Shown in pieces: positions 9,684 through 50,999 of a DNA stretch of 64,000 bases. The DNA is from Cystobasidiopsis lactophilus (Eukaryota > Basidiomycota > Agaricostilbomycetes > Agaricostilbales > Chionosphaeraceae). Position 1 is the stretch's first letter. The number at the start of each line of letters is the position of its first letter. The DNA is taken from contig BCIO01000002.1 of NCBI GenBank assembly GCA_001599975.1, positions 806,001 to 870,000 of the forward strand, given 5' to 3'. The position numbers and the translations under genes were made by a program. Below the pieces are notes generated by a model, which had not been told where the DNA came from, searched no databases, and saw nothing but the letters and a program-made list of their open reading frames with translations.

Positions 9684-10219
9684 GGTCTTGTCGTTGCCCG
9701 AGACAAGAACTTCGCGAACGGCAAGAAGTGCGACACCGCCTCCTGCGTTCCGCGAATGAAATACGTATGAGACGACTGGGAAAGCAACCAAGGGCCATTC
9801 CTGAGAGCAAGAGGAACTTTTTGCTGTGACTGCCCTGTTTGGGCGAAGAGTGCAGCGACAAGTTCCTTGGTTTCCTCTTCCAAACAGGAGACAACGCAGC
9901 CGAGACATGGAATGGAGCCATGCTCGAAGCGAAGGGTCGCGCGGAAGTCAAATGAAGGCAGACCAGCAAGGACCGAGGAGCGAGCTTGCAAGTTGGACTG
10001 GCCCTTGCCAGGTGGCAAATCACAATCCAGCGTCGCAGTGTTCTTTTGAGCCTTGAGCACTCGGTTCTGCGCACAATACTATTGAATTGGCATCAGAAAG
10101 TATTCCACAAGCAAGCCCAGCAGCATTTGGTGGGCCGAGCGCGAGAGGCAACTCTTGCGCTCGGTCAGCGACTCCAAGCTCGGCCTTTTGGTTGACTTCA
10201 GTCCTTCCCAGCTCCAAGC
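9684..10219. promoter_or_regulatory. Divergent promoter region: hydrolase / membrane-array copy A
   Basis: Region between two divergent start codons. It carries an exact GGTGGCAAA at 10011-10019, 209 bp before the ATG of array copy A. A 137-codon frame on the minus strand covers part of it, but it ends inside the hydrolase N-terminus in another frame and has no family features. I treat it as leader sequence. Confidence 0.5.
10011..10019 (+). promoter_or_regulatory. PACE-like box GGTGGCAAA upstream of array copy A
   Basis: Exact 9-mer identical to the ascomycete proteasome-associated control element bound by Rpn4. It points toward copy A, 209 bp from its ATG. Function here is inferred only from recurrence at a similar distance before other array members. 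Confidence 0.45.
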
Positions 10220-11664
10220 ATGTCGGAGTACCTGGCAGCTGTCGTGCCTCTCACGGCCGCCCTCTCGCTCGGCGCCCACCAGGGCTTGCGGCTCTTTGTG
10301 GCCACCAAGGAGCTCCGCGGCGGTGTCTTCGAGCCCAAGAAGCGCGAGCCCCAGTCGCCGGCGTCAATCTTCAAGCTTGTGCTCTTCGTCCTCGCGGCCT
10401 ACGCCATTGCCATCGTCCTCTTGCTCGCCGCGGCTGCCTACGTCGTGAAGCTCAGGTCCCAGGTCGCCATCGACAGCTTCTTTGCCGCTCCGCTGTCCTT
10501 GCTCATGTTCGTCTGGGTGCGCTGGGTGCGTCCAGCTGTTTCCTCTATTCCGAGCGAATCTTTTGTAACTGCCAGACGCACAGGCAATCATCCCGGTCTT
10601 TATGAAGCGGCCCTTTGTTACGCTGGTTGGCGACCGTGCGAAGGTCGACTACCGCGACTCCACCCGCACCAAGCGCCTTCTCCGAGGAGCCACCGCCATG
10701 CTCATCTGTGGTGCTTGGGTGCTGGGCACAAGCCTCGGCTGGTCCGGCGGCGTTGTGGATCTGCCCATGCTCGTCGGCTCCCTCATCCTCAGCTTCATGT
10801 CCTTCCACGTCGGCGCCGCTCCAATGCGCATGCGCGCTGTCTTCCTGGCTTTGTTCTTTATGCTCGCTGTACGTCTTGCTCAAGGCATTCTTAAGCTCTC
10901 AACTGAGCAAATCTCATTCGCAGGTCTGGATCATCACGCCTTTGTTCGTCATCGGTCTGTCGCAATGGCTGCCTGATGATACCTCCGAAGACCCTTCGCA
11001 AGAGCCGCCCTCCACCCTCTTTGGCTGGATCTCGGCGGAGGATGCCCGAGACTACCCCGGCTTCTCGCCTTGGGTGGGCGAGCTCCTGAGCACCTTCCAC
11101 CTCTACTACGTTGTGGTCGCCATTATGTTTGTCAGTGACCCTCATCCTTAGCTCAAAGAAGCTAGCTTCACGCTGAAGGACACTTACAGCTCGTCCCCGT
11201 GCTTCGGTTCGATTATACTCAGCACCTGAAGAGAACCGCGTTTGGCGACTCGGACAAGAAATCGGGCGAGCCGCAGCCGTCTGACGAGGTCGACCTGCCC
11301 ACCATCCCAGGCTTCGCCGCTCCTACCTTTTTCGCCGCCCTGGCCTTCGTCATGTGCGGAGCGACCGGACTCGTTGGCCTCTGGAACTGGTTCGACCCGG
11401 CCCTGGAAGAGACGTTCGCCACGGCCTCCCAGTTCAGCCTGGCCGTCTCGTTGTGCATGCCATTTGCTGCCGCCTTCACGCTGTTCGTCGCTTGGATGCG
11501 GGGCGAGTGTCGTGCCCTTTGGGACTACGACAACTATACGTGAGTTTGCTCGTCGCCGCGTTTGAAGCAGTATCTGATCTCCAGTTCGTTGCAGTCCTAC
11601 TCAGAGCAACGTTGACGAAGAGTCAGCTCGTCCTTTGTTGGACGGGAAGGAGGAGAGCGCTTGA
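10220..11664 (+). CDS. Multi-pass membrane protein, array copy A
   Basis: Predicted 405 aa, about eight to nine membrane segments, function unknown. Start MSEYLAAVVPLTAALS at the first membrane segment. Exons: 10220-10525, 10584-10868, 10924-11130, 11190-11539, 11595-11664. Seen: GLRLFVATKEL after TM1; YRDSTRTKRLLR before TM4; an acidic loop LFGWISAEDARDYPGFSPW between membrane blocks; RFDYTQHLKR; then VDLPTIPGFAAPTFF and WMRGECRALWDYDNY. The short last exon encodes a hydrophilic tail ending DGKEESA; its acceptor (after GCAG at 11594) was preferred over one 10 nt upstream because it gives a longer tail like the paralogs. It is closest to copies B and D at the N-terminus. No catalytic motif is evident. 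Confidence 0.8.
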
Positions 11665-11985
11665 GATGGACTTTCTTTTGATGCGCTTGTACGTTTTAGA
11701 CACACGCCCTTTCTTTGCTTCATTGTAACAATTTTCACGAGGTTTACCATGCCCTTTGCTGCTGGAACAGGCTATTAAGAACAGCGAAGTCCGGTGGCGC
11801 TCGCCGGCCAGGGTGGCGATTCCGACTTGCCAACACTAATTGAGCTTCGAATCACACATGAGGTCGTCTCAATTGGTCGGAGCAGCGTCCATTTTGGTTA
11901 TGTGTCGACTTCCGAGGCGACGCGACAAACAACCTCTTGCTTTCACTCCACCGGCTTTTGCCCGCCTCCTATCGCTAGTCCCAGC
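11665..11985. other. Spacer A-B
   Basis: No gene seen. It contains a near match to the 9-mer, GGTGGCGAT at about 11813, some 170 bp before the ATG of copy B. Confidence 0.4.
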
Positions 11986-13507
11986 ATGACCGAGTACCTG
12001 GCTGCCGCCTTCCCAGTATCAGCAGCGCTCTATTGGGCTTCTCACAAGAGCTTGAGGCTGTTTGTTGCGGCCCACGATGAGCTCTGGGCGCCAAAGCAAC
12101 CAATGAACGAACCTAGCCAAAAGCAGCTCGCCCCGCCTCGTTCTCCTCCCCCTGCAGAGCCTTCTCTAACCTATTTCTTGTCTACCTATCTTTTCCTCCC
12201 CTGTGTCGCCATATTCGGCCTTAATCTCGCTTCGTGGAAGGCTCGGAATCAATATGCGGTCGATGCCCTGGCTCTTGCGCCATTCTTCGGTGCCATGTTT
12301 TGCCTTGTGCGCTGGGTACGCCTGCTTTCCTATCAAGCGTAATATTGGCCCGCCTTCTTATCATGGACCGAAAGCAGGCCATCGCTCCCGTCGTCTTGTG
12401 GCAGCCTTACATTACCAACGGCCGAGATACTGTCACCGTCCGCTACCGCGACTCGACGTTGACCCGAAGACTGCTACGCAACGCGATCGCCCTGCTCATT
12501 TGCTGCGGCTGGGTGGTCGGCTTGAGACTCGGCCTGTTCAGTCCCCCCTTCAACCTGCCGATTCTTGTGGGCACCTTGACTTTCGGTGGCATCGCCTTTC
12601 GCTGGCCGCTGCCGTCCAGTGCTTCCGAGTGCTTTGTCAGCATCTTCTTGTGTTCCGGCGTGAGCTACTTCCACAGAGGCCTTTCGCCACCGCTCATGTT
12701 CATCAACGCAGATTACGGTCTTGGGTTCTGTGGTGGCATACCCGCTCGCCTACGTCATCTATGGAGTTGTCGTGCTCTGTGATAAGCTCTGGCCGTCGTC
12801 CATTGAGCAGAGCGCGCCCCAAGGAGAACCAAGCTGGTTGTTTGGCTTGGTGACGGCGGACGACCTGCGAAACTCTCCGCGCATGTCGGGATGGGTCTTC
12901 GAGTCGACCACCACGTTCTTCATGGTCCAGCTGTTCATCGTCGTTACCCTTTACGTGGGTCGATCGGCTCTGCCTCCGCTTCTAATCAGCAGCTTTTGCT
13001 CACGTCTGAGTTCGGCAGCTCGCACCCATTCTCCGCTACGACTTTGATCGACACGTACAAAAGATTGTGCCGGCCGACTTCAAGCCCAAGGAACCAAGAG
13101 AACACAGGCCGGAGGTTGATCTGAACGCAATGCCCGCATTCCCAACGCCGGTGTTCCGCTCCGCCCTCGCGTCTCTCGTTCTGGCCGCCACTCTGCTGTT
13201 GGCTTTCTGGCGCTGGCTTGACCCCTCAACTGACAACCAGCTGGCGTTGCTGTTCAGTCTCACCCTTTCAGTGAGCATGCCGCTCTCGGCGGCTTGCACT
13301 CTCGGAGTGCTGTGGCTGCGAGGCGAATTAGAGGCGTTCTGGGAGCAAAGCGGCCTCGGGTGAGCTCATTTGGTCGACCTTTCCCCCAAATGTGTCTTAT
13401 TATTCTTCTCCCATAGGCAAGAAAGGCGGAAGGCGGAGTACTTGATGGCACCTCTTCAGGCTGCTGTTGAAACTGATCTAGAAGGCGGCAAAATGGAGAA
13501 GGCTTAG
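11986..13507 (+). CDS. Multi-pass membrane protein, array copy B
   Basis: Predicted 428 aa. Exons: 11986-12315, 12378-12659, 12712-12954, 13019-13359, 13417-13507, same phases as copy A. Seen: MTEYLAAAFPVSAALYWASH, SLRLFVAAHDEL, a Pro-rich loop after TM1, YRDSTLTRRLLR, loop LFGLVTADDLRNSPRMSGW, RYDFDRHVQKIVPADFKPK, VDLNAMPAFPTPVF and WLRGELEAFWEQ, then a tail ending GGKMEKA. It is the closest relative of copy D: both share the PADF-x-PK-x-P-x-E block after the RYDF motif and VDLNAMP, so they probably arose by a late duplication. Function unknown. Confidence 0.8.
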
Positions 13508-13858
13508 TATCTTGGTTACCTTTTTCTTCATTGTACAGTTAGTATGCACTGTGCCATTCATCTCCATGATCGCAATGGCGGCCGCGAGCATTGGCGCCTT
13601 GCTTGAAATTTGGGTGGCAAACTTCAATGGCCCACTCTGCCTTCAATAGTACGCCGCCCGAGCTCTGAGATGTCTTTCAAGCACTAGATGCATCCACTGT
13701 TTGCACCGCGAGCGCGACGAGCACCAGCTCGCCAGGCCAGGCGGTCCAAACAACTCTTGCTCCGGCCCGCGACCTGGCCGCCTTGACGCTCGCTCGCAGG
13801 AACGCACACCAGCTCTCAAGCCCACACACATCAGCTCCCACATCTGTGCAGCAACAGC
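13508..13858. other. Spacer B-C
   Basis: No gene seen apart from the GGTGGCAAA box listed separately at 13613. Confidence 0.4.
13613..13621 (+). promoter_or_regulatory. PACE-like box upstream of array copy C
   Basis: Exact GGTGGCAAA followed by CTTC, 246 bp before the copy C ATG and in gene orientation. Confidence 0.45.
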
Positions 13859-15067
13859 ATGGAGTACCTGATACACGTCTTGGCCGTGATCTTTGCCTTG
13901 TTCTGGGGCGAATACAACAGCCTGGGCCTCTTTGAAGCGTACCAGCTGGCGGGCGAGCGCCTTCCCGGCATGGATCGTGACCCTCCGGATGACAGGCCTG
14001 GGATATTCATCTTTGCGGCCGCCTGGCTCGCGCTCCTCTGGGCCCACTCGCGACTCCAAGGCCAGGTTCCCCTCGACAACAACACAAAATTCGCGCTGGG
14101 CTTGAGCTACGCTGTCATGATCTTGCTGAACCAGGTTCGTCCGCGAGCACTGCTGCTTTATCGAACGACACAATGCTAAGCCAGAGGACAGATAATGGTT
14201 CCCCTGTTCCAGAAGCCTTTCTTGTCCCAGCAAGGCCTCCAGTATCGTGATGCGACTCGTACCAAGCATGCCTTTCGCAGGGCCTCCGTCATACTCATGT
14301 GCTATGTTTGGGTCTTTCCACTGAAGTGCCGCTTCTTCGGCGTGGACGCGCCGGTCTTAGTCCTCTCCCTGGTCACCTATAGCTTTGTTTCCAGCGCCTA
14401 CTGCCGCAAAACACACAACATGCGCCAGTTGTTTCTTCAATCTCTCTTTGTACGTTGATTTTCTAGACATCTTTCTCAAGCCAGGCTGAGGCTGGCGCCA
14501 GATGTGGCCGGGCATAGCTGTCCTTTGCTGGGTGATCATTGGCGTTGTCGCTAGCTTCTGGAAAGGACCCGAGGATACTGGCAGCTGTCAAGCAGACGTG
14601 TCGCCTTGGATCGGCACCTACTTTCTGATGATCATCATCTCCATCGCCTTGCCCAATATCGTCTTTGTAAGAAAAGCAACCTTACGCACTCCTTTCTTCT
14701 TTGCTAAATCGTCTCGAAGCTTTCGGCCTTGATACAGTTTGACTACACCGAGCATGCGAAGAAAGTGGCGTCTCATGAGGACGTGAGGCCGAGCATAGAA
14801 ACCACTCCACTCCTCGGAGAAATCGACGTGCCCAGGGTCCCCTGGTTCATCGCGCCCAACTTCCTCACTGCCTTGGTGACCCTCGCCTGCTGCGCCATGG
14901 TGTTCCTCGTCAGCGTGAAAGCGGCCGACTGTCCCTTCAGCAAGAGCACGATGTTCGAACAGACTTTCTTCGCGATCTTCATATGCCTCCCATTTTCCGC
15001 CGCCACGACGCTCTTTGTCGCCTGGCTGAGAGGCGAAGCCAAAGCTTTGTGGCATGCCGATGATTGA
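13859..15067 (+). CDS. Multi-pass membrane protein, array copy C
   Basis: Predicted 348 aa. Exons: 13859-14134, 14192-14449, 14502-14666, 14720-15067. The N-terminus differs from A/B/D and pairs with copy F: GLFEAYQLAGE and DRDPPDD here, GYFEAIQLAEK and DRDQADD in F; the first exon is 276 nt in both. Seen: YRDATRTKHAFR, QFDYTEHAKK, EIDVPRVPWFIAPNF, WLRGEAKALWHADD, then TGA. The sister copies splice here (for example F, TTCAA|GTGAGC). In C the equivalent bases read GATGA|TTGACC, so the last donor seems lost and the stop follows. A possible orphaned last exon with EYV, as in copy D, lies just after 15103. The hydrophilic loop of the third exon is short. Function unknown. Confidence 0.75.
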
Positions 15068-15556
15068 CCGCACGTCTTCTGTTTTCCTCTAAACTCGAGC
15101 GCAGTTGAGTATGTCTTCCTATTCTCCAGGACCTACAGATTCCCATACCCGCTTTGTTCACAAATTACAATCGCCCGAAGCTGCTAGAGTGGCCGGGAAA
15201 GTGAAAAAGGCTCTTGAAGGCCGCCAGAAAGTTCCACCACTTCACATTTTGTCGAGCCCGGCTTTTGCGCAGGGCCTCCCTCAACGTTGTTGTACTTCTT
15301 TTCGTCGAGCCTTGCGATGCCAGATCTTCCAAGATCGACATTCCCTCGTCCGTTGCTGATGCGCCCTTGTTCTGCGCGTCTTGACGTAGGCAGTCTAATG
15401 CCCAACCTTCAACCCGTGTGAGACAAACTCTAACTCATGGGACGGCCCACAAGTAGCGTCGAACGATGCATGCAAGGAGCCTATTTCGGATAAGCCGCAA
15501 TCGACCGTTTCTCCGTTGCTGTCAAGCCACAACCTCGCTCTGCATCGGGTGCCAGC
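15068..15556. other. Spacer C-D
   Basis: No independent gene seen. The first ~120 bp may contain the unused last exon of copy C. No GGTGGCAAA box found before copy D. Confidence 0.4.
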
Positions 15557-17024
15557 ATGTCGGACTATTTGGCTGCCATCATCCCTATCTTTGCAGCACT
15601 GTACTATTCCTCACACCGAAGCCTCCGGCTGTTTGTGGCCTTTCGCGATGAACTCTCTGGCACCAACGAGGACGACTACTGGGGATCTCACAACCGAAAT
15701 CAGAGACATGCGCTGCCCTTCGTCCTTCTCTTCCTTTGCTACGAGTTGGGCGTCCCATTTGCTTCAAGGAAGGTATGGGACCCAGCAGTAATGGAGGCCA
15801 TTGCCGTTGTGCCGCCTTTCCTTGTCTTGCTGGCCCTCGTATATTGGGTACGCAGTCGGCTTACATACGCTCCTGCTCGACGTGGTCTTTATGATGGATC
15901 TTCTACAGGCTATTGCTCCCGTCTTCTTTGGGCAGCCGTACCTCACCCGCGGTCGTTATCGCGTGACGATCCGCTACCGCGATGCAACGCTTCTCAAGCA
16001 ACTCCTCAGAAGTGCTGTTGCTGTCTTGATCTGTGCGGGATATCTGGTTGGCCTCAAGTTTGACTACTCTGGCCCTCTGTTCAACTTGCCGATTCTCATG
16101 ATCGCCCTCGCCTTTGGCGGCATCGTATTTCGGCTTGCCTGCATTCCTGAATATTGTGCCGCTACCATGTTCGTACTGGTCTTTGGGAGCACAGCGGTAA
16201 CTCTTGTCCTTTGTGATACATCTAACGTCTGAGTGCCCTTAACCCTGCAGGTCATGGTGGTCCTTGTCGCTCTCACCTTGACCATTGGCAGCATGATCGA
16301 CCTCTACAACCGGCTTCGGCCATCTGTCGACCAAATCCCCGTCCAGAACTCGCTGCCCAGCGAAGGGCCTCTGTTGTTTGGCTTGATTACCGCCGAGGAT
16401 CGACTCCACGCTGCAGGCGTTGCGCCATGGGTCTTCGAGCTCTTGAGCACTTTCACTGGGATCTTCATCTTCCATACAGTGCTTTATGTGCGTCTCAATT
16501 GCCCTTCTCTGCATACGTTGGGCGCTAATCGGTTGTCTAGCTCGCGCCCATACTTCGCTACGACTTTGGACAGCACTTGAAGCGGACGGTGCCAGCCGAT
16601 TTCCAACCGAAGAATCCTAGCGAAGAGCGGCTCGAAGTCGATCTGAACGCAATGCCATCGTTCCCAGCGCCGACGTTTCTCACCGCGATCACCAGTTTGA
16701 TTGTCGCAGCGACGGCATTCGTTGCATTCACACGGCAGCAGGACACAGCCAAGCCCATCATAGGACCTGAACTCATTCTCGGACTGGTGCTTTGCATACC
16801 CGTCAGTGCCACCTGCACTTTAGGGGTGGTGTGGTTGCGCGGTGAATTGGACGACTTCTGGAAGCAACGCGACTTCAAGTGAGTCTTTCGTGCAGCGACC
16901 GCTGCTTGTACCCAGCTGACCCATTCGTTTGTGAAGGGCAAACAGGCGGAACGTGGAATATGTGATGAGCCCTCGTCGTGTCGACGTCGTTGCGGGCGAG
17001 AAGGGCGTGGGCGACAAGGCTTGA
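15557..17024 (+). CDS. Multi-pass membrane protein, array copy D
   Basis: Predicted 410 aa. Exons: 15557-15847, 15909-16196, 16251-16487, 16541-16878, 16946-17024, phases 0,0,0,2. Seen: MSDYLAAIIPIFAALYYSSH, SLRLFVAFRDEL, APVFFGQPYLTRGRYRV, YRDATLLKQLLR, loop LFGLITAEDRLHAAGVAPW, RYDFGQHLKRTVPADFQPK, VDLNAMPSFPAPTF and WLRGELDDFWKQRDF, then a short tail with NVEYVMSPRR. It is close to copy B over its whole length. The tail exon is basic and hydrophilic and probably lies outside the membrane. Function unknown. Confidence 0.8.
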
Positions 17025-17136
17025 GTCTGGCGCCCACACTACACGTTCCGATGTTCCTCAGCTGCTTGTCAGGGTTATGTTCTATCTTTACTACGAAGAG
17101 GTTCTTGCGCCCAAGAGGGAGGGCGGGTCTGGTCTG

Positions 17137-17145
17137 GGTGGCAAA
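17137..17145 (+). promoter_or_regulatory. PACE-like box upstream of the relic exon
   Basis: Exact GGTGGCAAA, 217 bp before the relic ATG at 17354, matching the spacing seen at copies A and F. It is about 520 bp from the ATG of copy E. Confidence 0.4.
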
Positions 17146-17353
17146 TTTGGGGCCTTAACTTCCCTTCAAGTTATGCAAGCTCTAGCGGCCCTCGCTCTGA
17201 GATCTTAGTCAAGCATCTGCAGTAGTCACTGACTGCACTGTGACCGCGAGCCGGGCTTCAAGCACTCGACCAAACTTCAGCTCTTGCTCCCGCCGACGAC
17301 GATCGATCCTTTGACGACGAACGCTGGGCACACACGCTCAACGGCACAGGCAC

Positions 17354-17494
17354 ATGGACTACAACATGAAAGAGTACTTGTCGACCGCCTTGTTTGTGGC
17401 TTTGAGGATGGCCGTGGCCCTGGGCTGCTCGTCGATGGCATCGGCACGGGAAATTCTTCAAGTCCGTGGCCAAATCATGTCTGGATTGTGCTAG
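17354..17494 (+). pseudogene. Probable relic first exon of an eighth array copy
   Basis: A short frame reads M-D-Y-N-MKEYLSTALFVALRMAVALG and ends at TAG 17492-17494. The segment K-E-Y-L-S-T-A-L followed by a hydrophobic run resembles the MSEYLAAVV / MTEYLAAAF starts of copies A, B and D. No matching second exon (YRD block) follows before copy E begins at 17664. It could instead be 5' leader of copy E; the resemblance is short. Confidence 0.35.
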
Positions 17495-17663
17495 CCTGTG
17501 CTTCGCACCCTATCGCGCTGTGCCTGAGGAGCGACCGGCTGGTTCCAACCGTCAAGGCACCTTCTGCTCAAACTTTGCGCCGTTGCTGGACCCGCATGGG
17601 GTCCGCAAAGCCTGGAAATTTCAGCCTCTTGTTCTTCTTTCACCATCTTCTTTACCACCATCA

Positions 17664-19192
17664 ATGTACTACGCAGCGCTGCACGAATACCTGACAAGAT
17701 TTGGGCCTGTCGCGGTCGCGTTGTGGCTGGGTGCTCACCGAGGAATTCGTTACTTTGAAGCCAGCAGACGATTCCCCACCGGCCCGTTCAAGTACGAGCG
17801 CTGGGGAAGGGCGCCAGAGCAAGATCAAGACGGCAGTCTCGCTCACCTCGCGCAGGTGGAAAAAGTGCCGGAGGAAATCGCTCGCCAGTGGGATTTCGAG
17901 GACGAACGTCAGCGTTCTTTGTGGAAACTATGGACGTGTTGGTTTCTGTTCTACACCATGGGTGCTGGATGTCTCTTCCTTTTGAACGAGCTCAGAGATC
18001 AGTTCTTGATCGATTTCTTCTTTGCCTCCTGCGCTGCGGCCTTGCTGTATTGGATGGTTCGATGGGTATGAGAGCTGACAAAGACTTGATACTTTGGCTG
18101 AAACTAGGATGATGCAGTCTTTGAAGCCTATCTTGTTCAGCCCAGTTTGCGTGTCAGTCGAGCGCCACGAGATGGTGTTGCATTATCTCAACGCCTGTTG
18201 CCTCCAACAACCGTGCCTCGAAGCGGCAACCTTCATCATCTGTGCAATCAGCGTACTGGCATATAAGCTCAGCTGGTCAGCACTCAATATCCCATCCCTC
18301 TTGGTCGGCCTTGTGGTTTGGGGCAGAGCCGCCGATGAGGGGCTTCGCCCAGGTCGCACGAAAGACGCCGTTCGCTACACTTTAGTGATGCCTGTTTTGG
18401 TAAGAGCCTACCCGAGCCTCGTGTGAACAAGCCCTCAGGCGAAAATTCGATCAGATTTGGTTCTTTTCCGTTGGCGAGGGCCTACCACCACTCGGAGTCG
18501 GCCACAACTCTTCATCAGCGGCATTGGACTCCATTTCAGTCGATAGCAGCGGCAGCTTTAATCCGTCGGCCTGGGTCAACGAGTTGTGGATCTGCGTGTT
18601 TGTCGTTTTCAACGGGTTTTTCTATTTGACTTCTGTCGGTGCAGTGAGTTAAATGCTATCTGCGCAAAGTTTCAAAGCTCTCTGACTTTTGGAGACGCCC
18701 AGCTGGCCTTCTACCTGCGCTTCGATTATTTTCGCCACGACCAGCGAACTTGCAGCAGAATCGATGAACCAACGAACAAGAACCATCCCGGGAAAGTCAA
18801 ACTGCCCAGGATACCCTACTTTCCTGCGCCAGTCTTCGCATCCGCCGTCGCCGCCCTCGTCGTCAGCTCCGCCGCCTTGGCGGCCTGCATCCGCTGGCTG
18901 CACCCCGAACCAGACGTCGTACAGCCATTCGACTCTTTCTTAGTGATTTTATGCACTCCAATTGCCACTGGGTTTACTGCACTTGTTGTGCGCATACGCG
19001 GCGAGAGCAAGGCCTTCTGGGAGTACACCGAAGGGCCGTGAGTCTGTCTGTTTGTTCAGGGTATGCCCATCTGACTCTATGACCAGCAAATACTTGCACT
19101 ATTACGAGTATCAGGAGGCACTTCGAGAGTCCAAGGCTAAAGGCAGTCAATTCGGCATCGACCCCAAAGAGGGGGTGAAGGAAGAGGTGTGA
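17664..19192 (+). CDS. Multi-pass membrane protein, array copy E
   Basis: Predicted 437 aa, the longest copy. Exons: 17664-18065, 18118-18399, 18455-18643, 18703-19037, 19087-19192, phases 0,0,0,2. Seen: N-terminus with GAHRGIRYFEAS, an extended charged loop before TM2, RFDYFRHDQRT, VKLPRIPYFPAPVF, RIRGESKAFWEY and a tail LHYYEYQEALRESK ending EEV. The YRD motif of the second exon is not kept; the region reads SVERHEMVLHYLN instead. This makes E a separate subgroup. The acceptor of the third exon (18454) was chosen by phase and by the conserved x-W start; an earlier AG at 18438 gives the wrong phase. Function unknown. Confidence 0.75.
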
Positions 19193-19552
19193 TCTGTTTC
19201 GTGCGGTTCTTAGGGGAACAGCGTCTGTCGCCCCCATTTGAAATTTCGAACTCTCTGATGCATCCGACGAGGAAGGATTGGCGCCATTTGCGACTTATGG
19301 GGACGCTTTGCCCGATTCGGGGAACGGGGTGGGTGGCAAACTTTTGTTCGTCGCCCCTCCAAATGCCATTTAGCACCAGCAAACCTGATCTACAGAAGCC
19401 TATAGCTATACAAGGCTCCCTCTCAGAGCACCGCGAGCCTGGCAAGTGGCCGGCTCCTCAGACCAAAACAACTCTCTTCTGGCGGCGACGATTCTCGACA
19501 GGCGAACGCCGGGCTCGCACGCGCACCAGCTCTGGCACCTGGGCTAGGGATC
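19193..19552. other. Spacer E-F
   Basis: No gene seen apart from the GGTGGCAAA box at 19332. Confidence 0.4.
19332..19340 (+). promoter_or_regulatory. PACE-like box upstream of array copy F
   Basis: Exact GGTGGCAAA in gene orientation, 221 bp before the copy F ATG. Confidence 0.45.
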
Positions 19553-20918
19553 ATGGAGCACTGCATCGGCGTCCTGGTCATGTCCGCGAGCTTGCTGCTG
19601 GGCTGCCAGCAAAGTTTGGGCTACTTCGAAGCCATCCAGCTCGCCGAGAAGCACGGCCTCTACGTTGACCGCGACCAGGCCGACGATCTTTTGGGCTTCT
19701 ATGCCCTCATGGCAGCCTCATTGGTCTTCTCTTGGGCCCAGTCTTGGCCCCAATCGCAAAACATCGCCATCACCGACTTGGTCTCCATCTTGCCATTGGC
19801 CGTCGTGATCTTCATCGTGATGAACAAGGTTCGTTGCGTCAAACTGCTTCTTACCATGGAGTGTGCTCAATTGGCCGCAGATTGTCAGCCGCCTGATTAA
19901 CAAGGGTCCCTTCCTGTGCCAAAAAGGCTTGAAGTATCGCGACGCCAAACCCCTTACGTCAAAGGCCGTAGCAGCTTCCATCTGCGTCGCTTGGATATTG
20001 GCCATAAAGCTGGGCTGGTTTGAGTCGTGCACGCCGATCCTGGTTCGCTCTCTGGTCCTCTACAGCTGTGTTTGTCACTTTGGTCCCACCATTCTCAGCC
20101 CTCGCTGTTTCATGGCCATCGTGCTCCCGGTACGACCCCATTCGTTCCCCGACCATATTTTACAGACTTAGTTGTGTTTCCATCGTAGTTCTGGCCGGGT
20201 GTAGCTCTTTTGCGCTGGTGGATGACTATCGAGGAGGACTTGCAGACTGGTGGCACAGGCGGCGCAGGCTTGGTGCTGTTCGATCTGTTCGGCTCGCCCT
20301 CGCCGTCCATGACCTATCTGTTTGGCCCGCTCTGCCTCTTCTACGGTTCGAATGTTGCACGCTTCGTGAGTTGCTCGATTCTTTACATGCCGCAAATTTC
20401 TTCCTATGGCTAACCCTGCCGTCCAGCTGGCTCCTTTACTGCGTTTTGACTTCATCCAACATTTGAAGGAGACCATGCCGACTGGCCCAATCGAGCATAA
20501 AACAGGTCACCGCAGCGTGAAAGAGGTTGATGTGCGCAACATACCTTGGTTCTTCGCCCCCAACTTCTTCGCCGCCTTCATCTCCATCACCTTTGGGGCT
20601 CCGGTTCTTCTTGCCGTCATGGGGCCGGCTCCCAAAAGTGTCTACATTTCGAAGCCGATTGCAAACCAGCTTTGCTTCGCCTTTCTGTGCTGCCTGTCCC
20701 ATGCTGCTTTGGTGGCTTTGTGTTCCGCTTCGGTGCGAGGTGAAACGACAGCGCTCTGGAGTTACCATGACTTCAAGTGAGCCATCTCCCCTCAGTTTCC
20801 CGAGGATCAGCCAATAACGCTTGCGGTATTCAGGAGCAACCCTGCCATACTCGCTGTTGTGTCCCAATACAGAGACCAGACCTCGCCAGTGGCCCGCGAA
20901 AAGGCTTCAAGAGTTTGA
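19553..20918 (+). CDS. Multi-pass membrane protein, array copy F
   Basis: Predicted 378 aa. Exons: 19553-19828, 19881-20129, 20189-20365, 20427-20776, 20834-20918, phases 0,0,0,2. Its N-terminus (GYFEAIQLAEK, DRDQADD) pairs it with copy C two genes upstream rather than with its direct neighbours. Seen: GLKYRDAKPLTSKA, third exon starting FWPGVALL as in copy C (MWPGIAVL), RFDFIQHLKE, EVDVRNIPWFFAPNFF and SVRGETTALWSYHDF, then a tail ending REKASRV. Unlike C it keeps the last donor (GTGAGC). Function unknown. Confidence 0.78.
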
Positions 20919-21494
20919 CGGGGCGCCAAATTCAATCACTTCGCATTTCAACTTTGGGTGACTGGGACCGCGAGCAACTTCAACCAAACTGCTGGACGTC
21001 GCGGGCCCACATCCTCTCCAGCCTCAGTGTCCCGCTTCTCACACATAGCTTTACATTTCTGTTCTGAAACTACCCTTGTACCAAAAGACTTGCACCAGAA
21101 GTGCACTTACTCCACCGAAGGCAATGGTGGCGGCTCTTTGCTCCCTGCTTCCGCTCTCGCATCAAACAACGCTCGATTTTCAGGGTCAACTTGTTTTGAA
21201 TCGAATCGCTGTGGCCTGGCCGCTTGAGATCGCGACTGGAGAGGGCCATTGGCATCGGCGAGCGCCCGTTGTCGGACATTCATCGATTTGCCGTGTGACT
21301 TGCACTTGAACTGCTGCTCACTGACAGCGCAACCAGTCTTCAATGAGCTTTGAAAAGCGCTTTCATTAGATGCCAACACCTCTTTCTTTTTAGAAGAGGG
21401 ATGCACACCCGCCGCGGGCTCGCTGCCCCAATCTGCTGCTGTCTTTTGCCTTTTCTCCAGCGACCGTCCCTTGTCAACTGTCACTCGCACCAAA
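20919..21494. other. Spacer F-G
   Basis: No gene seen. No exact GGTGGCAAA; only GGTGGCGGC near 21125. Confidence 0.4.
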
Positions 21495-22853
21495 ATGCTG
21501 CTCCAATTCTGCTGTGTGCTGACGCCCCTCGTGTTGGCCATCGTCCTCGGCACCTACGCCTCTATGCCCATCTTCATCGCCGCCAGAAAGGTTTCGCCCG
21601 ACAAGTTCAAGCGACCGCTGACCTCTGTCTCGGGTGGTTGGCCGTCCTGTGCCACAGCGATGACTTGGGTTACTCGCTACCTCTGGCGGTGGTGCTTGGT
21701 CGCAGCGGGCTTACTGGGCTGCCTGCTTAGCGCTGCCTTCGCCTTGAAGTGGGCTCTGGGCTTACGCAGTGCTTCTGAAGGCGGCATTGTGGGAGTCTGG
21801 GTCGTAATGGTTGACTACCACATTCACACGGTGAGTCGCATGTGCTGTTGAGAACCTCCATTGCAAACTGAGGAGGCTGACCTCGCGTTGGCTGCTGCAG
21901 GCTTTGGAGCCGCTCTTCTTACGAGTTAGCCTTTCCTAGCTGACATTATGGAGTAGATCTGATGGTCCCCTCAGGGCCCATACATCACCACGGCTGGCAA
22001 GACCAAGTACTTGGTGCTTCGCTACCGAACGACGTCTTGGCTCCGACGCGCTTTGCACTTTGTCACCTCGATCCTTCTCTTTAGCGGTGCTACATGGACC
22101 TTTGTGAAAGGCCAATCAGTTGGTCGCTTGGTTGCATCCACCATCATTACGTCCGTTGTTGGATACAGCATGGTCCGCCAACTTGGTTTGATGCCGCGTC
22201 GTATCACCCCTTCCAGATTTGAGACCTTTGTGATGCACTGTGTGAGCTCAGGCCCGACTTGAGCTGCTTGAGGCTAACTTTCTGCTTCTTATTTCTAGGG
22301 AGAGTTCGCGTGGACACGCTACGTGTTTTTCGTAACCGTAGCCCGCTCGCATTTGAAGCAGATATAGAGCATTGGGAACCGTGGGCCCAAAAGATGCTGG
22401 GTGTGTTGTTCGCCTGTCTCATCATTGCTCAGCAAGGGGCTTTTGTAGGCTTTGCGCTTCGTCCAACGCCTGCCTTGCTGACTATGTGCGCAGATGATTC
22501 CTTACTGCCGCTTCGACTACGCCCGAAATGTCGAGCACGCCACACAGCCTGTCGCGGATGCTGTGATAACACCTGCCCCTCGAGAGGCTGATGTCCGTTC
22601 CATCCCCGCCTTCTGCGCGCCAACTTTCCTGCTCGGCATCGCCGTTTGTTTCTGCGCCCCTCCAGCCATCTATCAAACATTCAATTTGACCCACCTACAC
22701 CCGTCTGCTGTTGGAGTTGCAGCGCTCCTCAACTGCAGCCAGCCCTTAGTCATGGTCGCCATCGAAGTGCTCTCCCGCTGGCGAGGCTACTACAAGGAAA
22801 TGATGAAATACTGCTGGTGGGCATCATCCAGATCTCCTCTGTTATTTAATTGA
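21495..22853 (+). CDS. Multi-pass membrane protein, array copy G (divergent)
   Basis: Predicted about 361 aa; the most divergent member. Exons: 21495-21830, 21901-21924 (24 nt), 21975-22241, 22299-about 22322, about 22370-22444, 22494-22853. It keeps YRTTSWLRRAL in place of YRDST, RFDYARNVEHA, EADVRSIPAFCAPTF and a worn RGE region (SRWRGYYKEMM). The third block is unresolved: the phase-0 frame starting GEFAWTRYVFF meets a stop, so either a short intron (47 nt with donor at 22323, or 38 nt) is removed, or the previous donor is one codon base earlier and another frame is used. The acidic loop of the other copies is missing here. It could be an older or decaying member. Confidence 0.55.
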
Positions 22854-45994: not shown

Positions 45995-48900
45995 TCAGCT
46001 TTCGATGTCGCTGGCAAGAGAAGGGCTCTTGAGCTGACCTCGCCCTGTCCAGAGCTTGAGCTGCGCATAGCCCTGTTCCAGCAACACCTCGATGCCCTCG
46101 CAGGTGGCCCATTCGGGTTTCCCTTCTGCCATTGCCAACAAAGGCGTGCGACGGACCTTCATGGCCATGTCGACCAGCACGCCACCTGCCTTTCTCGCGA
46201 TGATCTGCTCAGTGAGCTGCACACCGGCTGAAGGGTTGGGCATGGCGGCGGAAGACTGGCCATCCGCCGGGATAGTGGCGACGACAACTGCCGGCGGAAC
46301 TGAGAGCTCGTCGAAAGAGGTGATGACGCGGATGTTATAGTTGGCTGGCAGGGCAGAGGCCACCTTGTCGGCGTTCTCCTTCGTCCGGTTGAAGAGGAAG
46401 ATGGTGGAAAGACCCAGAGCATGCAAAGCGTAGAGAGCGGCTCGCGATGTGCCGCCTGCCCCGATGACCAAACCGGCGGCGCCCTTGCCGAGTGGTGCAG
46501 CGGCACTCTGCAGCACCACATTGCGGATACCAATCCAATCGGTGTTGTCTCCCCGCAGCGTTCGCGTGCCGTCTGAGCCAACCACAGGGATGACCGTGTT
46601 CACAGCGCCGATAGCTTGCGCGTGGGGTGAAAGGGAGTCGAGGTGGGCCATCACATCGATCTTGAATGGGATGGTGACCGAAGCGCCTCCAAAAGTGTCA
46701 GAGTGGATGAGGTCGAGGCACGATTGGTCGAAAGACGTGGTCTCGTGGAGAGAGTAGCGATGCGGCAAGGCCAGCTTGGCGAACGCTGTGTTGTGGAGGA
46801 GAGGGGATTTGGACGCGGCGATGGGAAAGCCGAAGAGGTGGAATTCTTTTGCAGGAAGCTGGCCAATGAGGTGCAGAGCGGCTTGCACTTGCGAAAAGGT
46901 CAGCTGGCCAGGCGCCGAAGCGGCCATGAGTGGGTGGGTGATGGGAGAAAAGACGGGATTTAAGACCCGAGAGAGCTGGCCCGGCGTACCCATATTGAGG
47001 GTGATGAGGGGCTTTTGCTGGACAAGAGGCTGGCTCCGGAACTGCATCATGGCGACGTTGTCGTCTAATGACCCAGCTTTCGCGACTATCTTGACGATGT
47101 CGCCAAACTTGCTGCACAGCTTAAAGGTGTCCAAAGCGGTCGAGCTGTTCCATTTGAAACGCCCCGACCAATCGTGCGATGATGCAATGATTTGCGCGTT
47201 GCCTTTGCTCTGCACAAGCTGCTGGACGAGGTGGGCAGGCTTGTCGGACTCGAGGTCGATGTACTCGCAGCCCCAGCGCAGACCGGCATCCAAAAGTTGA
47301 AAGTACTCTGGAAGAGCCGCGTCGGGAAAGAAGCCCCCCTGCGACTTAGTTCGCACGGTGAAAATGACAGGCAAGGAAGAGGTTTTGCGGAGGGCGGCTA
47401 GTTGTTGTCCAACGTAGTTGAGCGGCGGGATGCGGGCTTCTGTTGGTGTTTTGCCGTCCGGGGAGAGCAAATCCACCCGGAGCTCGATGGCATCGGCGCC
47501 GGTGGTGACCTCACTGAGGTGCGAAAGAACCGACGTGAGGTCAGGGAAGGTCAAGGCAACAAAATAGGTCCGGCCGCTCTTCAGATCGCACAGGTTGAGA
47601 TTGCGTGAAGTGATGTAGTCGAAGAAGCGACCAATAGAGAGTTTGCTCTGCCGCAGCTGCTCGGCGCTAGGTGTCTTCAGCAGTTCTGCTTGGGATGCCG
47701 CAGATGCCTCCGCCTTCCAGCCAGTGTGGCTGATAAAGTCGTAACCGGTGCAGGACGCCAATAGCGGAACCCGCCTCTTAGCCACCGCCTCGATGGACTC
47801 GCCGTAAGCCGGCCGACCCGTCTCGATGTCGAGGTAGGCCAGAACTTCGTCCAAGTCCCGGACCACGTTCACCACTGGCCCTTCTGACCGCGAATACTCT
47901 TGCAGCAAGGCGAGAGCCTCGGGCGTCTCAATGATGCCGCCGCCAAGGGCGATGATATGCTCGGTGCCGCAAGTGGCGATGAGGTCCTTGAAGTAGGCAA
48001 GCTCCTGTTTGCGGAACTCTGGCCAACCGTGCTGGGCCACAAATTCGCGCACGCCGCACTGTGCCTTCTCTTCAAAGTAAACATCCGCGTCCAAGAACGT
48101 CCAGCCGAGCAGGTTGGCGGCAATCTGGCCGGTGAACGTCTTGCCAGAGCCGCGCATCCCAACCAAGAAGACACTGGCCGAGGCATCTTTGGCAGACCGC
48201 ATGGCGCTAGCCGATGTCGATGGGGCGGAGGGGACCACACCAGTGACTTTGACGCCGAGCCGACGATGAAGATCATCCCACCAGCTAGGCCACGTCTTCT
48301 CGACACATCGACGCTCGGTGATGACGGCGCCTGGGCCGCCCGTAGCTGAGGCGAGTACACTGAACGCCATGGCAACTCGGTGGTCGTCGTAGCAATGGAC
48401 GCTGGCGCCCGCCTTGAGCGCTTCCGGTTTCCGCCCGACGATCTCCAATCCGGTCGGCAGTTCCTTGGTCTCCACTCCAAACAGAGCCAGCTGCGTCATC
48501 ATCGCCTCAATGCGATTGCACTCCTTGACCCGCTGGTTGGCGATGCCGGTAATGCGGGTGGTGTTCGACGAGGAAGAAGTGGCGACGGCAGCCAAAGCCG
48601 ATGCTGTAAGGAAGGCATCTGTCATGGGCTCCATGTCAATTTCCGGAAGTGGGCGGAGCTGGCCAGGCGCTGGACCCGTGACTGTGGTGGAGGTGGCCGT
48701 CTGCTTGACGGCGCAGCCCATAGGCTCCAAAACGTCCTTCGCAAACTTGGCATCGCCTTGCAAAGAAGCAGAACCGATGTTGGTGAGAGTGCAGGTGGTG
48801 CCGGTGATGGCCGCCAAAGCTAGGGGGTAGGTGGCGCTGGACGCGTCGGATTCGATGGCGTAAGACTTGGGGTTTCGATAGGCACCCTTTGGAATGCGAT

Positions 48901-50999
48901 ATGCGTCCAAAAGTTTGCCAGAGGCGTTGGAGAGGCGCTCGACCTTGATGCCAAAGGTCTCCATCATGGCGCAGGTCATGTCAATGTAGGGCTGCGAGAT
49001 GACTTCACCGCCAACCAGCTCGAGCAGGACTTCTTCCTTCGCATAGGGCGCCGAGATCAAGATGGAAGAGACGTATTGGGAGGAGATGGAAGCGGCCAGG
49101 CTGATCTTGCCGCCTTTGAGGCCGGTGGAGCCAATGGATAGTGGCAAGCAACCCTTGCTTTCAAGAAAGTCAATTTCGGCGCCGTTGCTGACCAAAGCTT
49201 CAACCAAAGGACCAATCGGGCGCTCCTTCATGCGCTTGTTGCCAGTGATCACCGTCTTGGCGGCGTCCGGCGAGCCAACCAGAGTGCAGACGGTGGTCAA
49301 GAAGCGCGCTGCGGTGCCCGCGTTGCCGAGGTAAATTTCTTTGCTGGATGGCTGTGGGCAAGAGAATGCAGGTCAAAATAATCAACAGAGGCCATTTTTC
49401 TGGAGCTCGCCGACCCACCGAAAGCTTGCCGCCACCGCCTTCGACCACCAGCGTCTCGCCGTTGTCTTCCCACGAGAACTTGGCGCCCTGGAGACTTTGA
49501 AGTGCAGAAATCATGACTTGGGTGTCGTCCGAGTGCAAAAGGTTGGTCATGCGGCAGGTGCCTTGAGCGAGGGCAGCGAGCAGCATGGCCCGATTGGAGA
49601 TGGACTTGGAGCCAGGGGTGGACATTTCAACCGTCGTGGAAGCTGGCAAGCTGGCGGGGTAGACTTGCATGGCGGGCGAAAGCACGAGCGAGATGATGTC
49701 GTCTTCGACCGCCGTCGCCTTCTCTTCGTAGCACTTGCCGATGCGGGACAGTAACACGACCTTCTTCTTGTTGCCCGCGTTCTTCTTGTCCACGCTCATG
49801 ACGTCCAACAGCCGGGGAACGGTGAGGTCCAGGGCGGTAGGGCAGTTTGTGATTTTCGGGTCGGAGAGGGTGATGGGCAGGCCGTGCGACTTGAGGCAGC
49901 GGGTGAGGCGGCCAACAGCAGCGTTGCCCAGAACGCCCAAATGTCTCGCCACTTCCGCCTCCAGCACCATGCCAATGCTCACGCACTCGCCGTGCAGCAC
50001 ATGAGGGGTGACCACAGCTTCGATGGCGTGCCCGATCGTGTGCCCAAAGTTGACCAGGTTGCGCAGACCGGTCTCCTTCTCGTCTTTGGTGACAATGTAG
50101 GCTTTGACGGCCACGGAGCTCTTGATGACAGAGAGCAAAAGCTTTTGAGCTTCGGTGCGGGTGGCCAGGGTTTGGCCTTCTTTGGTCGCGCTGGACTTGG
50201 AGTGCAAGACAGCTGAGCGAATCTGCTCGACACCAGACTCCAGGTCGTCAAAGCTGTCTGCGTCCCAAATGGCGGCAGTCTGTGGGGAATAATCTGAGGG
50301 CTTAGCTTCTCTCCCTTTGAGAGCAGCTTATGTAGGGTCGACACCCACCTTGATGACTTCGGCCATACCGTTGACAAACTCTCGTTCGGGAAGGGTCTCC
50401 AGCAGGGCGGCGTCGATGAAAGTGTATTGCGGCTGGCTGAAGGCACCAATCAAGTTCTTGCCCAGCGGGACATCAATGGCCGTCTGAGCCGAACAAACCA
50501 CCAGATCAGCGTCTGCAGAACACTGATGACGAAGGGGGCAGAACGGCACCTTTCCGCCGACCGCAGAGTCGACCATGGAGAGCAAAGTGGTAGGGATCTG
50601 AACGTAGCGGACGCCTCGCATAAAAGTGGCGGCCACGAAGCCAGTCAGGTCGCCCACGACGCCGCCGCCCAAGGCCAAGATGACCATGTCCCTGGTGCAG
50701 CGCTGGGCGAGCAGGTAGTCCTCCACCTCCGCCTTGCCCTCCCTCGACTTTGACCCTTCGCCCGGAGCCACGGCGTAGCTGATCACCCGGCTGTCCTTGC
50801 CCTGCTTCTTGACCTCGGCTTGCAGAGCGGCGAGCAGGTCGGAGAGGAACAGCTTGGCAATCGCCGTGTCGGTCACGACCGCATAAACGCTCGACGGCAG
50901 CGTCTCGACCACCGTTTGCGCGATGAACGGCAGCAGGTGGAAGCCCAGAGCGATCGCCTTGTCCTTGCCCAGGATAGGCACCCACTCGACGTCGGCCAT
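45995..50999 (-). CDS. ARO1: Pentafunctional AROM polypeptide
   Basis: Predicted 1,600 aa, close to the usual AROM length. It catalyses steps 2-6 of the shikimate pathway to EPSP. Domains in order: 3-dehydroquinate synthase ([48 protein letters not shown]), EPSP synthase ([35 protein letters not shown]), shikimate kinase ([12 protein letters not shown], about residue 870), type I dehydroquinase (EYIDLES, ASSHDW, the Schiff-base lysine region DIVKIVAKA) and shikimate dehydrogenase ([28 protein letters not shown]). All five look intact. Exons in gene order: 50999-50550, 50483-50349, 50279-49419, 49351-45995; phase-0 introns of 66-69 nt, all within the first third. Confidence 0.97.

Follow-up and report, generated by a model that had tools for sequence, protein, structure and literature searches.

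Seven tandem membrane-protein genes in Cystobasidiopsis lactophilus that probably descend from SPP and have lost catalysis

Seven tandem genes in a 64,000-nucleotide stretch of the Cystobasidiopsis lactophilus genome (contig BCIO01000002.1; hereafter, the window) probably descend from signal peptide peptidase (SPP, an intramembrane aspartyl protease of the GxGD type; PF04258, MEROPS A22B) and have lost catalysis, judging from profile comparisons and motif inspection. The sequence evidence for homology to SPP in the C-terminal region and for the loss of catalysis is such that both are well supported, and homology over the full length is likely. We suggest that the array comprises seven diverged SPP-derived paralogs that expanded in tandem and would have kept the nine-helix plan and the TM7–TM9 signature of their parent. 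With both catalytic aspartates and PAL lost, the copies would thus be intramembrane pseudoproteases.

Gene models and layout of the array

The seven-gene tandem array is real. Seven adjacent paralogs had been proposed in a preliminary description of the window, and this was borne out by seven genes on the same strand (10220–22853, forward), each a single open spliced frame of 348–437 aa with GT-AG introns (Table 1). Introns 1–3 have the same place and phase 0 in copies A–F. The shared set of four introns with phases 0,0,0,2 described for the whole array was found at matching places in A, B, D, E, and F, and not in C, in which a stop just upstream of the fourth-intron place leaves three introns, or in G, which has an additional intron and a phase 1 splice.

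Table 1 Coordinates in the window of the seven copies and of their blocks equivalent to exon 4 of copy A
Feature	Coordinates	Strand	Description
Copy A	10220..11664	+	405 aa, 5 exons: 10220-10525, 10584-10868, 10924-11130, 11190-11539, 11595-11664
Copy B	11986..13507	+	428 aa, 5 exons
Copy C	13859..15067	+	348 aa, 4 exons, without fourth intron
Copy D	15557..17024	+	410 aa, 5 exons; sister of B
Copy E	17664..19192	+	437 aa, 5 exons
Copy F	19553..20918	+	378 aa, 5 exons; sister of C
Copy G	21495..22853	+	376 aa (open splice model); extra intron, no recognisable TM6, possibly decaying
Exon 4 of A	11190..11539	+	C-terminal block homologous to SPP, covering the end of TM7 together with TM8 and TM9
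Equivalent block, B	13019-13359	+	
Equivalent block, C	14720-15067	+	
Equivalent block, D	16541-16878	+	
Equivalent block, E	18703-19037	+	
Equivalent block, F	20427-20776	+	
Equivalent block, G	22494-22853	+	

In G, joining at the paralogs' second intron in the family phase 0 leads to a stop codon, and a donor two bases further upstream gives a phase 1 splice that keeps the frame open but leaves TM6 unrecognisable. Given that phase 0 joining meets a stop and that the open splice lacks a recognisable TM6, G was treated as uncertain. The G exon with the stop in the family-phase reading (window 22223–22444) could reflect decay or unusual splicing.

The copies share 17–46% pairwise identity over aligned columns (to A: B 35%, C 34%, D 33%, E 27%, F 30%, G 21%). 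In a tree of the copies, B grouped with D (support 99/99) and C with F (95/97), G formed a long branch, and the placement of A and E had no firm support. The order B C D E F would follow if a B-C pair had been duplicated and E separated the daughter genes, so that the mixing or unequal exchange previously proposed for the array need not be invoked. No further copies were found elsewhere in the genome (22.1 Mb, eight contigs) when A, C, E, and G (four of the seven copies) were used as queries in a search that scores only its best candidates.

Three motifs had been assigned to all copies. Of these, YRD occurs in five copies, A–D and F (E reads YLN and G reads YRT), and both [RQ][FY]D[FY]xxH and RGE with a later W are present in A–F (the counterparts in G are RFDYARN and RGY).

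The spacers contain two recurrent elements. GGTGGCAAA was found 15 times in the window versus 0.62 expected (at 10011, 13613, 17137, 19332, and 11 other places) and precedes A, C, E, and F; we take it to equal PACE, the proteasome element of ascomycetes (Rpn4 site). Genome-wide it occurs 2468 times, whereas the reversed pattern occurs 200 times. An element this frequent is not specific to the array; it was rejected as a shared promoter code and seems to be widespread here. ACCGCGAGC occurs four times in the window (13705, 17243, 19430, and 20967; 0.78 expected), each time in a spacer of the array, ahead of C, E, F, or G, and is possibly left over from a duplicated spacer or acts as a control site common to these copies. 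Elsewhere in the window, long frames on the reverse strand (45995–50327) look like the pentafunctional AROM shikimate enzyme, and of nine other frames that were scanned, six carry Pfam domains of ordinary kinds (alpha/beta hydrolase, SET, FMO-like, P450, PXA, and ADH_N).

Sequence and topology compared with SPP

The copies had been described as an unrecognised family, which holds for curated profiles and not for their origin, as a recognisable parent is found in SPP. The best Pfam match of the seven copies was at chance level (E 0.28), with none reaching PF04258 (0/7), and rhomboid or derlin families were absent among their matches up to E 10. The full-length consensus gave no Pfam match, and in NCBIfam the consensus gave only a chance-level row (E 0.2). 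The single exon 4 pieces did not match PF04258 either (0/7; the C piece gave DUF5493, E 0.075). With the exon 4 consensus PF04258 ranked first (E 0.11, 12.5 bits, cut-off 23.3), followed by DUF2975 (E 0.19), and with a loop-trimmed consensus PF07695 (E 0.011) was slightly ahead of PF04258 (E 0.015, 15.4 bits, cut-off 23.3). The consensus scans are, by these scores, equivocal.

Searches of protein and structure databases were negative. A profile (A1) compared with 5.8 billion proteins had no relative at E ≤ 0.01 among 7997 candidates scored, and the C-terminal region of the family consensus had none in the protein database at E ≤ 10 among 432 candidates; the protein search needs common 5-residue words, which argues against close relatives there and not against distant ones. 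PDB profile searches returned nothing for the full alignment and two chance-level rows for the exon 4 alignment (E 1.4 and 1.5). Fold models reached a pLDDT of 75.6 for exon 4 and of 71.4 for exon 1, the latter weak (pTM 0.34). Foldseek and VIA-align, run with the exon 4 model alone, gave nothing significant, and SPP was not among the matches listed, a result of little weight for a helical hairpin.

We took the conserved C-terminus (LRFDY, F.AP.F, RGE..A.W) to be SPP-like and put this to the test by comparison with SPP itself. A single SPP gene, apparently intact, lies on contig 5 of the genome (SPP profile matches at 526213–527260); its model carries YD, GLGD, and PAL, and by E-value it is closest to the SPP of Mixia osmundae, followed by those of other Pucciniomycotina (among 120 listed homologues of 2433 found), which suggests that the fungus belongs to this subphylum. 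Its third intron, inside the PAL codons, has an apparent GC-AG splice pair. Presenilin was rejected as the parent: a presenilin profile had a single reported match in the genome, which scored below the cut-off and sits inside this SPP gene.

The resident SPP and 25 of the 120 listed homologues were aligned (26 fungal SPPs) and compared with the seven-copy profile using hhalign. The two profiles matched with a probability of 96.3 and an E-value of 1.8e-9 (one comparison) over 99 aligned columns, placing array columns 269–386 on SPP 263–361. The score of 77.4 compares with a mean of 18.6 and a maximum of 29.7 for 100 shuffles, in which columns were permuted inside hydrophobic or hydrophilic stretches as a stand-in for unrelated polytopic families, and with 22.0 for the reversed profile. 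The C-terminal part of the array profile by itself scored 73.8 and exon 4 by itself 72.8 (shuffle maximum 28.8, n = 60).

Reciprocal HMM tests pointed in the same direction. The SPP HMM scored 8.6 bits on A, 11.1 on B, 9.5 on D, 13.1 on E, and 10.9 on F, values reached by none of 400 shuffles each, and for C (0.7) and G (−1.4) the score was equalled or exceeded in 14/400 and 50/400 shuffles, respectively. The homologous TM7–TM9 block was thus detected with the pooled profile and in A, B, D, E, and F singly, and not in C or G singly. Conversely, the array HMM had a median of 11.9 bits on the 120 listed SPPs and a top score of 34.0 (E 9.1e-11 for 120 sequences); 73 of these SPPs, which are mutually related so that the 120 comparisons are not independent, scored above the best of 1155 shuffled SPPs (1200 were made and the remainder gave no score). 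The positive-scoring domains were placed N-to-N (n = 34), C-to-C (n = 107), and elsewhere (n = 6). Without a score limit, a colinear C-terminal domain was found in 119/120 and an N-terminal one in 46/120.

The copies are indeed multi-pass membrane proteins, as the preliminary description held, with nine hydropathy peaks in the seven-copy consensus (windows starting at 5, 55, 83, 139, 159, 198, 257, 316, and 350). The SPP consensus windows start at 6, 68, 97, 147, 173, 201, 251, 300, and 327, with a weak extra peak at 217; helix spacing is parallel in the two, with long loops at corresponding places. Scans of single copies counted nine helices in each of A–D and F, and eight in E and G, with faults in B (TM1 missed and the TM6 stretch counted twice), E (TM1 missed), and G (TM6 missed). 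The array thus has the nine-helix plan of SPP, and also RFD where TM7 ends, F-x-x-P-x-F/Y at the start of TM8, a proline in TM9, and RGE-x4-W after TM9. RFD and RGE-W, which had been offered as marks of the family itself, are non-catalytic conserved positions of SPP. Unlike in SPP, the TM7–TM8 and TM8–TM9 loops are longer. The introns of the resident SPP lie at places other than those of the array, with none in common.

None of the seven copies has the catalytic motifs of SPP in their proper positions. YD/FD, GxGD, and PAL were all present in the 120 listed SPPs (anywhere in the sequence), whereas no copy has GxGD in TM7 (the C-terminal tail of D contains a G.GD by chance), [YF]D in TM6 (F has one in the TM6–TM7 loop), or PAL at the TM9 place (A has PAL in the TM8–TM9 loop, and near the place B reads QLAL and E reads QPF). 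In the resident SPP the GxGD aspartate lies 13 residues before the arginine of RFD, and the corresponding residues in A–G are Y, L, I, F, F, Y, and I. As mutating either aspartate abolishes activity in SPP/SPPL family members (excerpt of PMC7366577), the sequences make it very unlikely that the copies are active proteases of the SPP mechanism.

Alternative origins of the copies

The N-terminal two thirds of the array profile did not match SPP significantly in hhalign (21.3, E 0.065), and the top local match was TM1 on TM1. Exon 1 by itself scored 20.3 (shuffle maximum 19.7, n = 60), with a colinear TM1-to-TM1 alignment as the best match, and the TM1 block by itself scored 21.0, with 1/60 shuffles at least as high. 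An exon 1 HMM had a median of 4.75 on SPP N-termini versus 0.4 in shuffles, with overlapping top values (13.7 versus 12.6). TM1 agrees weakly with SPP at the colinear place. Neither exon 2, whose score of 13.6 was reached by 37/60 shuffles, nor exon 3, whose score of 14.8 was reached by 1/60 but whose match was off the diagonal, supports the SPP link. The middle helices gave no convincing sequence match, and homology there is likely from colinearity and topology.

One could therefore imagine that only the TM7–TM9 block came from SPP and that the N-terminal two thirds are an unrelated membrane module, the copies being SPP-tail chimeras with another function. Such an origin would fit the non-significant N-terminal score, the results for exons 2 and 3, and the lack of introns in common with the resident SPP. 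It is at odds with the colinear TM1 match, the N-to-N domain matches, and a nine-helix spacing that is parallel to SPP throughout, and we regard it as unlikely.

It is quite improbable that the copies are SPP-derived duplicates in decay and without function. G, possibly decaying, is frame-disturbed relative to its paralogs, and the copies are strongly diverged, but seven open models with canonical introns persist despite near-saturated synonymous divergence. Moreover, dN was lower than dS in each of the seven copy pairs computed, out of 21 (for B-D, dN 0.49 and dS 1.54), which suggests constraint, but with dS near saturation.

An SPP-unrelated family (a transporter, receptor, or lipid enzyme) that resembles SPP by membrane composition is very improbable: no curated profile reaches its cut-off and PF07695 was slightly above PF04258 on one trimmed consensus, but shuffles preserving composition and hydropathy fall short of the profile scores in both directions, and the motifs are correctly ordered and sit at the ends expected from SPP.

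Possible function of the inactive copies

If the copies descend from SPP, they may sit in ER/Golgi membranes, where the old substrate groove could bind transmembrane helices. The bound clients would be presented to quality control, or the single active SPP would be modulated or competed with, and the copies may have diversified for different clients. For one substrate, SPP cooperates with TRC8 and Derlin-1 (PMC7366577, in excerpt), and in the basidiomycete Phaffia a single SPP may act in protein-stress responses (PMC13026331, in excerpt). The seven tandem copies differ from the single SPP genes of Phaffia rhodozyma and A. niger, as given in passages of PMC13026331 and PMC7804941.

Pseudoproteases of the rhomboid family offer an analogy. 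According to excerpts of the respective papers, iRhoms have no catalysis and send rhomboid substrates to ER-associated degradation (PMC3149277), and the rhomboid pseudoprotease Dsc2 senses how long a transmembrane domain is on behalf of a ubiquitin ligase in the Golgi (PMC11513148). Like the array copies, iRhoms, derlins, and Dsc2 are relatives of intramembrane proteases without the catalytic residues (PMC3149277 and PMC11513148, in part), and both groups are proposed to use a substrate-binding fold on transmembrane clients. They differ from the array in having a rhomboid (serine) fold rather than GxGD, and no homology is claimed. By this analogy, we tentatively propose that the copies are helix-binding quality-control adaptors or regulators of active SPP, a role that we hold to be possible and somewhat short of an even chance.

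No natural inactive SPP or presenilin homologue was described in the titles, abstract beginnings, and passages of the open-access literature searched. The array might then be a pseudoprotease branch of the GxGD superfamily (SPP/presenilin), the first natural one, in which the substrate groove has come to serve seven diverged adaptors for transmembrane clients that regulate ER quality control or the active SPP, convergent with iRhoms and derlins, although we would not yet wager on it. The rhomboid-family pseudoproteases (iRhoms, derlins, and Dsc2) opened a field. An inactive SPP family in several copies, next to a single active SPP, would offer a natural test of the role of the presenilin/SPP fold in the absence of catalysis, and of the ways in which pseudoenzymes diversify.
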